A stretch of DNA of 12,781 nucleotides, taken from NCBI GenBank assembly GCA_002716525.1, contig PBBH01000007.1, positions 24,403 through 37,183 on the forward strand, written 5' to 3'. This document shows positions 2,569 to 8,142 of this stretch, one piece after another; positions within the stretch are counted from its first letter, which is position 1, and every line of letters begins with the position of its first letter. The notes beneath the pieces are model-generated. The model saw nothing but the letters and a program-made list of their open reading frames with translations. It was not told the DNA's origin and did no database searches. The position numbers and the translations under genes were made by a program. The DNA comes from Fidelibacterota bacterium (GTDB taxonomy: Bacteria; Fidelibacterota; Marinisomatia; Marinisomatales; TCS55).

Positions 2569-2647
2569 GGAAAAGGGTTGTGTTTCTGAATAAATATTTG
2601 GCCATAAAAGAAAATAAAATTCCAGTTAACTTCTAATCATAATTGAC

Positions 2648-2653
2648 AGGAGG
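2648..2653 (+). promoter_or_regulatory. SD that sets the start of the M20 hydrolase
   Basis: AGGAGG, the strongest Shine-Dalgarno site in the window, lies 4 nt before TTG 2658. An upstream in-frame TTG at 2643 sits before this SD and cannot use it, so TTG 2658 is the chosen start. The spacing is slightly short. Confidence 0.65.
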
Positions 2654-2657
2654 TATT

Positions 2658-3971
2658 TTGAATCAACAAATCAATCATTCATCAATTAAAATCATCATTG
2701 CTTGTTTTTTATTCTCAATTATTTTTGCAAATAATCCTTTACGTATTAATAATAATCGTTTAAACAAACATCTATCTGAACTATCCAAATTTGGGAAAAA
2801 TGAATTTGGTGGCGTAAGTAGGGTAGCTTACAGCGACGCTGATTTGAGCGGACGCGAATTTGCAATAAAACTAATGAAAACTGCTGGCATGGATGTCCAC
2901 ATTGATCCAGGCGGGAATATAATTGGCATTTTGGCGGGGAAAAATAACGACCTACCTCCAATTGCTATAGGTTCCCACATTGATTCAGTGCCTGAAGGTG
3001 GAAATTTTGACGGTAATGTAGGATCAATATCCGCTATTGAAGTTGCACAAACTCTCAAGGAAAGTAAACATACACTAAATCACCCTTTAATCGTTGTCAT
3101 ATTTCAAAATGAAGAAGGTGGCCTTTTTGGCAGTAAAGTTATGACAAGTGGATTAACAGAACTGGAACTGGAACTTCAATCCAGTAGTGGCTATAGCATA
3201 AGAAAAGGAATTGAAAGGATCGGTGGAAATATCGACCAACTTGAAAAGGCTAAATTGAAAAAGAATGAATGGGCTGCTTATGTAGAGTTGCATATTGAAC
3301 AAGGGGGTATTCTTTATAATGAAAACCTAGATATTGGTGTCGTACAAGGAATTGTAGGTATTAAGCAGTGGGAGGTATTGATAACTGGCTTTGCGAATCA
3401 TGCTGGAACAACGCCAATGGATCAGCGGCGTGATGCACTTTATGCTGCATCTCAATATGTGCAGGCTGTTCATGAAATCGGGAAAAAAACTCCTGGAAAA
3501 CAAGTAGCTACAGTTGGAATAATCAAATCATTTCCTGGAGCACCAAATGTGATTCCAGGGATAGTTAATGCAAGTCTTGAAATTAGAGATTTAGACGGAA
3601 AGAAAATTAATTCTATTTATAAAAAAATTGAATCTACGTCGGAAAATATTGCAAAAAACACAGGGACCAAATTCAAGTTTAAGCAAACAATCAATATCAT
3701 TCCCGAACCCACAAACAGGAGAGTCAGTTGGGCCATTAATCAAGCCGCACAAGACCTTCAACTGTCAAGTAAATTTATGCCCAGTGGAGCTGGACATGAT
3801 GCCCAAGAAATGGCGGTAATTTGTCCTATCGGTATGATTTTTATTCCCAGCAAGGGAGGTATCAGCCATTCACCCAAAGAATATTCATCTCCAAAAGATA
3901 TTGCGAACGGGGCAAATGTTCTACTCCACACCGTTTTGAAATTGGATAAACAATACAGTGAGGAAAATTAA
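2658..3971 (+). CDS. Exported M20 amidohydrolase (N-carbamoyl-L-amino-acid hydrolase / allantoate amidohydrolase-like)
   Basis: Binuclear metal amidohydrolase of the HyuC/AmaB/AllC branch of peptidase family M20, which removes N-carbamoyl or ureido groups from amino-acid-like substrates. From TTG 2658 it is 437 residues, close to the family's 410-430 plus a leader. The metal-site set is complete: H107 in GSHIDSVPEGG, bridging D118 in NFDGNVGS, E152/E153 in FQNEEGG, H212 in ELHIEQGG and H404 in GISHSPKE. H248 in FANHAGTTPMDQRRDA is in the lid/dimer domain and probably contacts substrate. Residues 10-24 form a hydrophobic signal segment ending IIFA-NN, so the enzyme is probably periplasmic, whereas characterised relatives are cytoplasmic. 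Substrate cannot be told from sequence; allantoate, N-carbamoyl amino acids and ureidoglycolate-like compounds remain possible. First gene of a tight cluster; its TAA abuts the next ATG. Confidence 0.9.
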   Translation: MNQQINHSSIKIIIACFLFSIIFANNPLRINNNRLNKHLSELSKFGKNEFGGVSRVAYSDADLSGREFAIKLMKTAGMDVHIDPGGNIIGILAGKNNDLPPIAIGSHIDSVPEGGNFDGNVGSISAIEVAQTLKESKHTLNHPLIVVIFQNEEGGLFGSKVMTSGLTELELELQSSSGYSIRKGIERIGGNIDQLEKAKLKKNEWAAYVELHIEQGGILYNENLDIGVVQGIVGIKQWEVLITGFANHAGTTPMDQRRDALYAASQYVQAVHEIGKKTPGKQVATVGIIKSFPGAPNVIPGIVNASLEIRDLDGKKINSIYKKIESTSENIAKNTGTKFKFKQTINIIPEPTNRRVSWAINQAAQDLQLSSKFMPSGAGHDAQEMAVICPIGMIFIPSKGGISHSPKEYSSPKDIANGANVLLHTVLKLDKQYSEEN

Positions 3972-4604
3972 ATGTCGTTCAAAACTGATAGAACTCGGGT
4001 TCGCCGACTCCCTCAGCGAGGGCATTACGATAAAAATACGATATATCCAATTATTGATGAGGCACTCTATTGCCATGTTGGAATCAATGTTAATGACAGT
4101 CCAGCAGTCATTCCCACCATCCATGCCAGGAAAAATGATACATTATATATTCATGGATCTGCTGCTAGCCGATTGCTAAAATCCATTCCAAAAGAAAATA
4201 ATATATGTGTAACAATAACTCTTCTCGATGGTATTGTACTCGCACGATCTGCTTTTCATCATTCATTAAATTATCGATCCGTTGTCATATTTGGGAAAGG
4301 AGATCTAGTTAATGATCAGAATGAAAAATGGAATGCGTTAAAAACAGTCAGCGACCATCTTATCCCTGGGCGATGGGAAGATGCCCGCCAGCCTAACCAA
4401 AAAGAATTAGATGCAACAACCGTAATTTCAATTTCACTGAAAGAAGCTTCTGCAAAAATCAGAACAGGGCCACCAAGCGATGAAGAAGTTGACTATCAGC
4501 TGCCTGTCTGGGCGGGTGTTTTACCCTATACAATCAAAAAAGGAGAACTAATTCCTGACCCTCGGTTACCAAAATCAATCAACATCCCTGATTATCTGAT
4601 TTGA
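3972..4604 (+). CDS. Pyridoxamine 5'-phosphate oxidase-like flavin-binding protein
   Basis: 210 residues matching the split-barrel flavin-binding family often labelled 'pyridoxamine 5'-phosphate oxidase family' (Pyridox_ox_2, NimA-related). Family hallmarks are seen end to end: TDRTRVRRLPQRGHYD at the N-terminus, LYIHGSAASRLL around residues 58-69, LLDGIVLARSAFHHSLNYRS in the middle, IPGRWEDARQP, then EASAKIRTGPPSDEE and LPVWAGVLP near the C-terminus. Length is that of the intact family. No signal peptide, so it should be cytoplasmic, in contrast to both exported neighbours. The ATG follows the previous TAA directly (TAAATG), with a GAGGA SD at 3960-3964 inside the upstream gene, so translation is probably coupled. 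Members bind FMN, F420 or heme, and physiological substrates are mostly unknown; genuine PdxH activity should not be assumed. The stop TGA shares two bases with the following TTG start. Confidence 0.88.
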   Translation: MSFKTDRTRVRRLPQRGHYDKNTIYPIIDEALYCHVGINVNDSPAVIPTIHARKNDTLYIHGSAASRLLKSIPKENNICVTITLLDGIVLARSAFHHSLNYRSVVIFGKGDLVNDQNEKWNALKTVSDHLIPGRWEDARQPNQKELDATTVISISLKEASAKIRTGPPSDEEVDYQLPVWAGVLPYTIKKGELIPDPRLPKSINIPDYLI

Positions 4605-4732
4605 AGCTTAAAATCCTTTCAGTCGGAAAAATTAAAAATAATAATCTAGATGAAATGGTGAAAATGTTCTTATTAGAACAAATTTATCGTGCAATTTCAA
4701 TTTTAGAAAACCGAAAATACCATAAGGGTTAG
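4601..4732 (+). pseudogene. rlmH: Internally deleted rlmH (23S rRNA pseudouridine1915 N3-methyltransferase) remnant, 43 codons
   Basis: An open frame from TTG 4601 to TAG 4732 encodes 43 residues. The first 19 read LKLKILSVGKIKNNNLDEM (TTG read as Met at the start), like the beginning of RlmH (E. coli MKLQLVAVGTKM). The rest, with FLLEQIYRAISIL and final KYHKG, matches the extreme C-terminus of RlmH (E. coli VAESLYRAWSI ... PYHRE; S. aureus LIEQVYRAFKI ... AYHK). About 110 central residues are absent, including the LDxxG and IGGPEG segments that build the SAM-binding knot. The join falls near codons 19-20 (about 4657/4658), is in frame, and lies in a short imperfect repeat (ATGAAATG, GTGAAAATG). 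It cannot be a normal methyltransferase. Its start overlaps the preceding stop (TTGA) with no SD of its own, and it carries the SD of the next gene. It could be a decaying gene, an assembly join or a retained micro-protein. Confidence 0.75.
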
Positions 4733-4733
4733 T

Positions 4734-5816
4734 GTGGACCAGTTTAAGCAAATTTACATTTTAATATGTTTTTTTATATTATCGGTTGTAGGCCTACGAT
4801 CTATTGAAAAAGGGCCGCATAAACGAGCCGCTCGTATTATAGAAAAATTTATAGATACATATGATATACCTGGACTATCCATAACGGTTGGGAAAAATGG
4901 TCAGATAGCCTGGACGAAAGGATTTGGCCTTGCTAATATAAATGAAAAGATTCCTGTAACTTCAAAAACTAGATTTCGAATTGGCAGTATATCTAAAACA
5001 GTAACTTCTGCAGCAGTAGGCCGCCTAGTGGATCAGGATAAGCTTGATTTAGATGCCCCCATTCAAACTTACGTACCCACCTTCCCAGAAAAACGATGGC
5101 CAATTACTACACGTATGGCCATGAGTCACCTTTCAGGAATTCGACATTATAAAGGTAATGAATTTTTAAATGAAAAATATTATTCCACTGTATTAAAAGG
5201 ACTCAGAATTTTCCAAGATGATACGCTAAGCCATGAACCGGGGACTCATTATCTATACAGTAGTTATGCATGGAATCTAGTCAGCGCAGTGGTCGAAGGT
5301 GCAACCGGTATTGATTATCTTTCCTATATGGAAGATACAGTTTTTACTGCTCTGGATACAGAGACACTAATAGCAGAACACCAAGATTCAATCTTAATAC
5401 CCATCGCTTCTTTTTATAATGCCGAAAACGGCGAACTAATATTGGCTCCTCAAGTCAATAATAGCTACAAATGGGCTAGTGGCGGTTTGGTCGGAACCAG
5501 TACGGATTTGGTCAATTTTATTCATAACCTTCATGCTACTGATTTCTTATCGAAAGAAGTAATCAAAGAACTGCATACACCAAACACCACTCGTATTGGT
5601 CAACCAACCAACTATGGGTTGGGATGGCGGCATTACCGTGATTTTTGGCGTAATCCATTCATTGGCCATAGTGGCGGATCCGTCGGGGGCAGCGCCATGT
5701 TGATTTATTATCCTCAAAAAGAAATTGTTGTAGCAATCTTGGTGAACTCACGTTCCGAAAAAGGTGGTGATTTAAATCTCTTGGCACAGCGGATTGCCAG
5801 AAGATTTATACATTAG
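4734..5816 (+). CDS. Exported LACTB-like serine hydrolase (beta-lactamase / peptidase S12 family)
   Basis: 360-residue penicillin-binding-protein fold enzyme (Pfam Beta-lactamase, MEROPS S12). It resembles the mitochondrial LACTB branch rather than resistance enzymes: FRIGSISKT with nucleophile S85 and K88 (LACTB also has SISK), HLSGIRHY, YVPTFPEK, YLYSSYAWN with Y175-S176-S177 in place of class C YxN, VNNSYKWASGG, and H312-S-G-G315 as the third catalytic motif. An N-terminal hydrophobic segment (about residues 6-21) predicts export to the periplasm. The GTG start lies 1 nt after the rlmH remnant, with AAGGG at 4724-4728 as SD. Family members cleave peptides, esters or D-amino-acid bonds; the substrate here is unknown. 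Being downstream of an exported amidohydrolase, it may work on periplasmic peptide or amide compounds, which is inference. It converges on the TonB receptor with only 22 nt between the stop codons and no terminator hairpin. Confidence 0.9.
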   Translation: MDQFKQIYILICFFILSVVGLRSIEKGPHKRAARIIEKFIDTYDIPGLSITVGKNGQIAWTKGFGLANINEKIPVTSKTRFRIGSISKTVTSAAVGRLVDQDKLDLDAPIQTYVPTFPEKRWPITTRMAMSHLSGIRHYKGNEFLNEKYYSTVLKGLRIFQDDTLSHEPGTHYLYSSYAWNLVSAVVEGATGIDYLSYMEDTVFTALDTETLIAEHQDSILIPIASFYNAENGELILAPQVNNSYKWASGGLVGTSTDLVNFIHNLHATDFLSKEVIKELHTPNTTRIGQPTNYGLGWRHYRDFWRNPFIGHSGGSVGGSAMLIYYPQKEIVVAILVNSRSEKGGDLNLLAQRIARRFIH

Positions 5817-5838: not shown

Positions 5839-8142
5839 TTAGAAATGATATGATATATTAACGAATGAATTGCGGGTAGCACCAGGCCAGAAAAATGCCT
5901 GATACCCATTCGATTCATAACCGTACCCATACGTTGAATAAAGTTTATCAAATACATTGTTTACTTTGACCAATACTTCTAAAGCTCTCCATTGGTATTT
6001 GGCACCAATGTCTAAAAGACCATATCCATCAATCATACCTGTTTCAGTATTGGCCTTATCAATATACATGTGACCAATTCTTTTCCAATGTGCAAAAAGA
6101 AGCATATAATTCCGAGGACGATAATTCAAAGACAGATTGAATAATGTATTGGGAATATTTGGAATACTTTTTCCATTATTGAAAAAATTCATAACCAGCG
6201 CCCCATTTGCGGAAAAACTAAATTTCTGATTAAGTAAAAAGGTTGCTTCCCACTCAAACCCGGAATGATCCGTAGAATCAGCAGAATAGTAATCGTATTC
6301 TCCTTCCTGTTTCACATCAATGTTTTTCAGTTGTTCATTGAGGTATTGAATACGATATCCATTGATGCGAGCATGACCTTTTGAGAAGGTAAAGTCGATT
6401 CCCATTTCTATATCCGTTATCACTTCCGCCGCTGCCATAATGGGCTTACTCCAAACATCATCTGCTTCAATAATTTGATTATCTGCAGGTTCTTTTTGAG
6501 CTTTAGCCCAATTCACAAACCAGTGTAACGAATCCCCCATTTCCCAGGTCATACCAATCCTAGGATTGAAAAAATTCCAATTTGCTGATAAAGTATGCCC
6601 AGTAGCATGACCGATCGTTTCCTGATCTAAAGTCCAATTATGATTTTGATTTTGAATATCAGCCATAATGGTGAATGGCTGCCCTGGTGGATGCCAAACG
6701 AAATGGCTGAAACTTGTTATGGTTTTTTTCTCGCTAAGATACCTGTAATAACGGTGCCATCCATCACCAATAGTTGCGACAAGGTTCGCATCGGAGAACT
6801 GGGAGACTTCTCCAAAATGATCACCAAAATATGAGCGTATTTCTCCGCCCACATCTACCCGCAGTTCATCATTCTTCCAAGTCAATGTTGGTACAATACC
6901 AAAATAGTTATTATCGATCCACTTTCTTCGAAGCAGATCGGTATTCATATTTTGTTCCTGTACATCGGTAAATTGATTATTCACATCCAAGTTATATGCA
7001 TAATAATCCCGGCCCGTTTTTAATACTTCGTAATACCCTTTACCAGCCACAAGATAACTCACATTCCTGAAAAATAGATTCTCTCGCAGACGAGAAGTCG
7101 TATTAACAGAATAAATCTGTTGAAGAAAGTCATCCGTGTAGGCTTGATATCCTGCGCGACGTTTGGTTCGATCATTAATATCGTCCATATGGACTCCATC
7201 CCATAGTAGTTGGGTATTTTCATATCCAATATGGACACGGTACTGATTTGTAAACTTTTTCCCGCGATGTTCCAAGCCAAAAAACATTCCTTTCTGTTTA
7301 GAAAGATGATTTTCTCTATAACCATCAGATTTAATCTGTGAAGCACGAACAGTCAAACTCAAATCTTCACTCAAATCTTTACCAGAACGATAACGCACCT
7401 GGTATTTGGTCGTATTCCAATCGCCAGAACCGAACGAAGCTTTTATTTCACGTTGGTCTTTTGCGATTTGTGTATTCACATTGATGGATCCGCCAAAAGC
7501 AGATGAGCCATATAAGCTATTACCTATACCACGTTGGATCTGCACATCTTTGGCATCGGCCAACAAATCTCCATGATCTACCCAATATACCTGATGGCTC
7601 TCATTATCATTCAATGGCACACCGTCAACCATAACGCCAATCTTGCTCTGATCAAATCCACGGATAGAAACATAGGAATAGCCAGTTCCGTTGCCGCTTT
7701 CACTATAGGCCCATACTCCCGGTTCGCTAGCAAGAATCATGGGCACATCTTCTACAGTGTATCGAGTTTCAATTTCTTGTGACGTCAAATTAGAAAAAGA
7801 AACCGGTGTTACACCTGCTATAGCACGGGTAGCGTTAACCGTCACCTCCTCTCCTTCTAGCACCGTTGGAACCATCAAGATTGTCATTTGCGGACGGATA
7901 CTTGTGGTAATGGTTTTATATCCGATAAATGAAAAAGATATTTCAGATCCATCATTAACTGTGAGAAAAAATGAACCGGTTTCATCTGAAGTCGTGCCAA
8001 ATTGTCCAACAACAATATTAACACCTGCTAAAGGGTGTTGGGATTCATAATCTGCAATGGTTCCTTTTACGTTAATTGATTGGGAAAAAAGTCCAGATAG
8101 ACACAGGTTGATAATTAAATATGAAAAGCGTAAATGATTCAT
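5839..8142 (-). CDS. TonB-dependent outer-membrane receptor, probably for thiamin or a precursor
   Basis: 767-residue outer-membrane receptor. Order: signal peptide (1-20, ending GLFS-QS), carboxypeptidase-regulatory-like beta sandwich (about 22-95, with VKGTIADYESQHPLAGVNIVV and TSDETGSF), a TonB-box-like stretch EEVTVNATR, plug (about 115-230, with SYVSIRGFDQSKIGVMVDGV and GNSLYGSSAFGGSINVNT), then a 22-strand-type barrel to the C-terminus. The last residues, FVNISYHF, end in Phe, the usual outer-membrane insertion signal. Family members bind a nutrient outside and release it inside with energy from TonB-ExbB-ExbD. The cargo call comes from the TPP riboswitch just upstream: thiamin-regulated receptors of this kind are known from Bacteroidota comparative genomics (Omr1 type). 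No inner-membrane thiamin transporter sits beside it here. Translation from ATG 8142 fits both the signal peptide and the riboswitch spacing. Confidence 0.93.
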   Translation of the reverse strand: MNHLRFSYLIINLCLSGLFSQSINVKGTIADYESQHPLAGVNIVVGQFGTTSDETGSFFLTVNDGSEISFSFIGYKTITTSIRPQMTILMVPTVLEGEEVTVNATRAIAGVTPVSFSNLTSQEIETRYTVEDVPMILASEPGVWAYSESGNGTGYSYVSIRGFDQSKIGVMVDGVPLNDNESHQVYWVDHGDLLADAKDVQIQRGIGNSLYGSSAFGGSINVNTQIAKDQREIKASFGSGDWNTTKYQVRYRSGKDLSEDLSLTVRASQIKSDGYRENHLSKQKGMFFGLEHRGKKFTNQYRVHIGYENTQLLWDGVHMDDINDRTKRRAGYQAYTDDFLQQIYSVNTTSRLRENLFFRNVSYLVAGKGYYEVLKTGRDYYAYNLDVNNQFTDVQEQNMNTDLLRRKWIDNNYFGIVPTLTWKNDELRVDVGGEIRSYFGDHFGEVSQFSDANLVATIGDGWHRYYRYLSEKKTITSFSHFVWHPPGQPFTIMADIQNQNHNWTLDQETIGHATGHTLSANWNFFNPRIGMTWEMGDSLHWFVNWAKAQKEPADNQIIEADDVWSKPIMAAAEVITDIEMGIDFTFSKGHARINGYRIQYLNEQLKNIDVKQEGEYDYYSADSTDHSGFEWEATFLLNQKFSFSANGALVMNFFNNGKSIPNIPNTLFNLSLNYRPRNYMLLFAHWKRIGHMYIDKANTETGMIDGYGLLDIGAKYQWRALEVLVKVNNVFDKLYSTYGYGYESNGYQAFFWPGATRNSFVNISYHF

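Follow-up and report, generated by a model that had tools for sequence, protein, structure and literature searches.

A 43-codon open reading frame within the 12,781-nucleotide stretch of Fidelibacterota DNA analysed here (the window) is very probably the relic of a recent repeat-mediated deletion in rlmH, in a lineage that has repeatedly been losing this dispensable rRNA methyltransferase. Taken alone, the locus is a case of ordinary gene decay and is well explained. The window lies on a contig of 72,281 bases (C7) in a genome (G000) of 1,182,029 bases that is divided over 42 contigs and is 73.5% complete. Table 1 lists the frame, its parts and its two neighbours. The start of the frame overlaps the stop codon of the PNPOx-like gene as TTGA, its stop is followed by one base and then by the GTG of the LACTB-like gene, and the AAGG upstream of the LACTB-like start sits inside the retained rlmH 3' part; the intact start overlap and stop spacing noticed in a first-pass annotation of the window are thus as described. 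The PNPOx-like protein is 99% identical between the window and its nearest relative, G002, and among the 10 named loci found with this protein the five nearest (77-99% identity) belong to Candidatus Neomarinimicrobiota/Marinimicrobia, while the remaining five (43-50% identity) are Cytophagales-like. An M20-type peptidase gene (window positions 2643-3971) lies between polA and the PNPOx-like gene in G000, G001, G002 and G010, whereas for the remaining nine genomes of the genus the stretches retrieved contained none.

Table 1. The short rlmH frame, its parts and its neighbours, in positions of the window.
Feature	Position	Strand	Basis or remark
PNPOx-like gene	3972..4604	+	Pyridox_ox_2, PF12900, 1.7e-39; upstream neighbour, stop overlaps rlmH start
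Probable rlmH relic left by a deletion, 43 codons, starting with TTG and ending with TAG	4601..4732	+	PF02590 match, alignment with G002
Retained rlmH 5' part, 19 codons	4601..4657	+	Residues identical to the first 19 of G002 RlmH
The one copy of the 8-bp repeat ATGAAATG still present, at the deletion junction (303 bp gone relative to G002)	4650..4657	+	
Retained rlmH 3' part, final 24 codons and stop, conserved C-terminal tail	4658..4732	+	
LACTB-like gene	4734..5816	+	Beta-lactamase family PF00144, 1.1e-64; downstream neighbour

The family membership of the short frame is carried by its two ends. The Pfam RlmH profile (PF02590) matches it in two stretches with an E-value of 2.4e-9 and 37.8 bits, above the cut-off of 27, and the best stretch aligns profile positions 131-154 of 154, the conserved C-terminal tail, with residues 18-41. 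Nine NCBIfam RlmH models also match, with the best stretch ending in the C-terminal tail, and all fall far under their cut-offs (30.7 bits against 207 for the best by E-value, and 19.7 against 149.7 for TIGR00246), such that the frame does not have the near full-length match of an NCBI equivalog (TIGR00246, PRK00103). Pfam matches to Rubredoxin_C and Mei5_like were under cut-off and were dismissed as chance. The SAM-binding knotted core of RlmH carries the motif GGPxG, which the short frame does not contain; the GGPKG of G002 falls within the 101 codons that the window lacks. Compared to RlmH, the 23S rRNA (pseudouridine1915-N3)-methyltransferase (PF02590, TIGR00246), the short frame has the residues of the start and C-terminal tail in common and, like the full gene of G002, lies between these two neighbours, but it is without the 101 central codons that include the SAM-binding core. 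RlmH methylates pseudouridine 1915 as a dimer in which catalytic residues reach the partner monomer from the C-terminal tail, according to one study (PMC5430550). Because the tail is present and the SAM-binding core absent, the product of the short frame is predicted not to be an enzyme, and it is almost certainly unable to act as a methyltransferase. The second full copy of rlmH suggested as an option by the first-pass annotation was not found in G000, where the single match of any kind was the window's own, although in a genome that is 73.5% complete a second copy could be missed.

The deletion itself is best seen by comparison with G002, which has an rlmH of full length in the corresponding position, with the PNPOx-like gene before it and the LACTB-like gene after it, as the first-pass annotation had proposed looking for when it interpreted the frame as an rlmH with an in-frame internal deletion. 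The PF02590 match and the alignment with G002 both bear out this interpretation, with the correction that exactly 303 bp (101 codons), or 70 percent of the gene, are missing from its middle rather than about 330 bp (110 residues), leaving the first 19 and last 24 codons. The flanks align without gaps on both sides at 93.4-94.6% identity, and the retained codons differ from the full-length gene at 9 of 129 bases, a resemblance that exceeds chance. The first piece of the alignment runs gapless to position 4657 and the second begins at 4650, and the 8 bases of overlap are ATGAAATG, of which G002 has two copies (at 6679 and 6982 of locus L078, 303 bp apart) and the window has kept one. Each copy encodes part of a (D/H)-E-M motif and the two are in frame with each other; the rlmH of G002 has no other exact repeat of at least 8 bp spaced more than 30 bp apart. 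Among 27,495 possible pairs of breakpoints at least 200 bp apart, 9 would give at least 8 bases of homology, and one 8-bp repeat alone yields 9. Relics of deletions between short direct repeats are a generally known kind of pseudogene, and here likewise the junction retains a single copy of the 8-bp repeat and a close relative has the orthologue intact at this position, supporting a fresh deletion in this lineage, one of the options raised earlier; the difference is that the frame happens to be preserved. While the intact frame had been considered odd for decay, the repeat spacing is a multiple of three, and any deletion between same-frame 8-bp repeats is in frame.

Relative to G002, the retained codons carry seven synonymous and two amino-acid differences (dN/dS 0.056, compared to 0.062 for the PNPOx-like and 0.199 for the LACTB-like gene). 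One difference is at residue 37, which is N in the window and in the intact copies P0005-P0008 and H in G002, so that the change probably lies on the G002 side. At 0.348, on only 25 synonymous sites, the dS of the retained codons exceeds the values for the neighbours (0.101 and 0.179), an excess for which we offer no explanation. Since a long-dead relic should carry more amino-acid changes, the low dN/dS points to either a recent deletion or constraint; a young deletion and a constrained frame are equally expected to produce it, and 43 codons cannot decide between them.

The 13 genomes of the genus show rlmH in several states, with a full-length gene in four (G002, G003, G004 and G007) and a broken gene or none found in nine. 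In addition to the short frame of G000, residues 1-53 are kept in G005, followed by the end of a TonB-like gene, and in G012 pieces of rlmH lie in different frames with an internal deletion. G006 and G008 may each hold a few last codons of rlmH, and the 13-30 bases read by eye are suggestive of short tail remnants. The PNPOx and LACTB-like genes of G008 (L089) are separated by 266 bp of mostly unrelated sequence; this stretch also holds a 14-bp inverted repeat (TTTTCTATAAACAT / ATGTTTATAGAAAA) and may be a small mobile element. No remnant of rlmH was found in G001, G010 and G011, where the PNPOx and LACTB-like genes are side by side, and none of PNPOx, rlmH and LACTB-like was found between polA and the TonB-like gene in G009. 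The polA tree, built from 26 of the 30 returned polA loci (all but G017, G037, G042 and G047) with G010 and four partial polA rows from genus g8 added, places G000 as sister to G002 (100/100) and the intact G004 as sister to the broken G012 (100/100). The polA of G010 (L126, C52:3196-5719) is in two overlapping pieces, one with an internal TGA, reflecting either a sequencing error or a true break. Counting by hand on this tree with losses only gives five losses in the genus, or six if the weak fork uniting G006 with the G001 group (78/79) is wrong, while an equal-cost count that allows regain gives four changes. The losses-only count is preferred because intact copies, both in this genus and in genus g8, occupy a single region that runs from polA to the TonB-like gene and form one group in the RlmH tree, with a support (94/80) that narrowly misses the level treated as firm by the tool. 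For the same reasons, the ancestor of the genus most likely carried rlmH in this region. The RlmH tree used 28 of 120 listed homologues, and the one copy of family f7 that it includes, from six full-length f7 copies of which one passed the motif filter, falls outside the g1+g8 group.

There are several other potential explanations for the short frame. It is extremely doubtful that assembly simply dropped 303 bp at the 8-bp repeat, as the fragmented state of G000 might lead one to suspect and as the first-pass annotation had listed among its options. Usual assembly words are far longer than an 8-bp repeat. When the short frame was searched against about 5.8 billion proteins, by a method that needs shared 5-residue words, two proteins were returned, which were compared as protein letters only. 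One of these (P0002, 43 aa) is another allele with N rather than K at residue 2 and the same junction, and comprises 5 members on 6 contigs; the other (P0003, 25 aa) consists of the tail alone. Although the protein of the window itself may be among the P0002 members, the longest contig of that cluster (268,224 bp) is not the window's (72 kb), and thus at least one other contig holds the junction. The rarity of such proteins also argues against the product being a working microprotein (one still able to dock as the RlmH tail does, for instance), a possibility that we consider very improbable: P0002 and P0003 are its only short relatives in that search, and no full-length partner was found in G000, with the reservation of its 73.5% completeness. 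In its favour are the low dN/dS of the retained codons, which a recent deletion predicts equally, and the donation of catalytic residues to the partner monomer by the RlmH tail, as described in PMC5430550.

Alternatively, the frame could act as a translational relay in which ribosomes terminating on PNPOx restart at the TTGA, cross the 43 codons and restart at the LACTB-like start using the AAGG, a reading that we regard as distinctly unlikely. The intact start overlap and stop spacing would suit such a relay, but both are also found in the full gene of G002 and were possibly just inherited. Read by eye, the end of rlmH, including a stretch resembling AAGG or AGGG, precedes the LACTB-like start in G000, G002, G004, G012, G006 and perhaps G008, and G005, which is without the rlmH 3' part, is also without a LACTB-like gene at this place. 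However, the LACTB-like frame is free of stops behind the frame-broken rlmH of G012, and likewise in G001, G010 and G011, where it lies close behind PNPOx with no rlmH seen; since the frame is open in these four genomes without a working relay, a relay is not needed there. The last dozen or so bases of rlmH with the AAGG- or AGGG-like stretch may be all that selection keeps. Overall, it is very unlikely that the deletion was kept because the short frame now serves the LACTB-like gene as a microprotein or coupling leader, with the enzyme being shed in most of a phylum in which its rRNA target persists.

Across the phylum, RlmH proved to be uncommon, and its description in the first-pass annotation as very widely conserved is not supported for this group. 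A search of 61 genomes, consisting of G000 and 60 relatives, gave matches in 13 at E-values up to 10, and the nine above the cut-off were eight full-length copies and the window. In a phylum set of 176 genomes, for which at least 80% completeness was asked and to which G000 was added besides, 15 genomes had a match at an E-value of 0.001 and 161 had none; of the 14 above the cut-off, 11 were full-length copies, one was the window, and the other two, in G099 and G107, were broken. A full-length RlmH was found in only 3 of the 94 near-complete phylum genomes (completeness of 90% or more, contamination of 5% or less), namely G004, G096 and G101, and the fourth and last match in these 94 was the remnant in G005. 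The same search matched 8 of 14 control genomes, including E. coli and B. subtilis. Of 41 genomes, 39 yielded the polA protein and 38 the RluA family, and both were recovered from all 24 relatives within these completeness and contamination limits, which indicates that the search method does find genes in these genomes. In family f7, rlmH is in two pieces in both G099 (L075/L077) and G107 (L074/L076), one of them with an internal stop, and decay of the gene may be under way there too.

Two accompanying changes were considered and neither was supported. A change in the rRNA target was not seen where testable, in the 12 of 41 genomes with an exact copy of the E. coli helix 69; the pattern allowed up to two mismatches, but the backward control matched 7 of 41 genomes, and thus only exact copies are counted. 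G021 gave an additional match with two mismatches, and the other 29 genomes, which may or may not contain a 23S gene, gave none, including G000; within the window's genus, helix 69 was matched in G001 and G004 only. Loss of the pseudouridine synthase alongside RlmH is likewise not supported by the distribution of the RluA family, whose search does not single out RluD; the three genomes in which the family was not found (G000, G009 and G010) are 73.5-76% complete.

Returning to the deletion relic, we propose that one 303-bp deletion removed the middle of rlmH, probably through slippage during replication or through illegitimate recombination involving the two ATGAAATG copies, and that the frame would have been kept without any need for selection since the copies share it. 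The gene appears to be dispensable in this lineage, given its several independent losses in the genus and the lack of a family match in most of the searched phylum genomes, and its 3' end may outlast the rest as it would carry the ribosome-binding sequence of the next gene. In Mollicutes, RlmH has been described as lost in part of the group and pseudouridine 1915 as ubiquitous (PMC4014445); those losses are likewise lineage-specific, whereas the ones here concern a genus of Neomarinimicrobiota in which remnants are still visible. A search of one literature collection for RlmH and Marinimicrobia together, with those words only, found nothing. The wider pattern is more useful than the locus, in that 161 of the 176 Neomarinimicrobiota genomes searched gave no match to a widespread rRNA modification enzyme, and RlmH was lost several times in one genus while an RluA-family synthase and, where found, helix 69 remain. 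Sister pairs with and without a full-length RlmH (G002/G000 and G004/G012) provide material for asking what role m3-pseudouridine 1915 plays.
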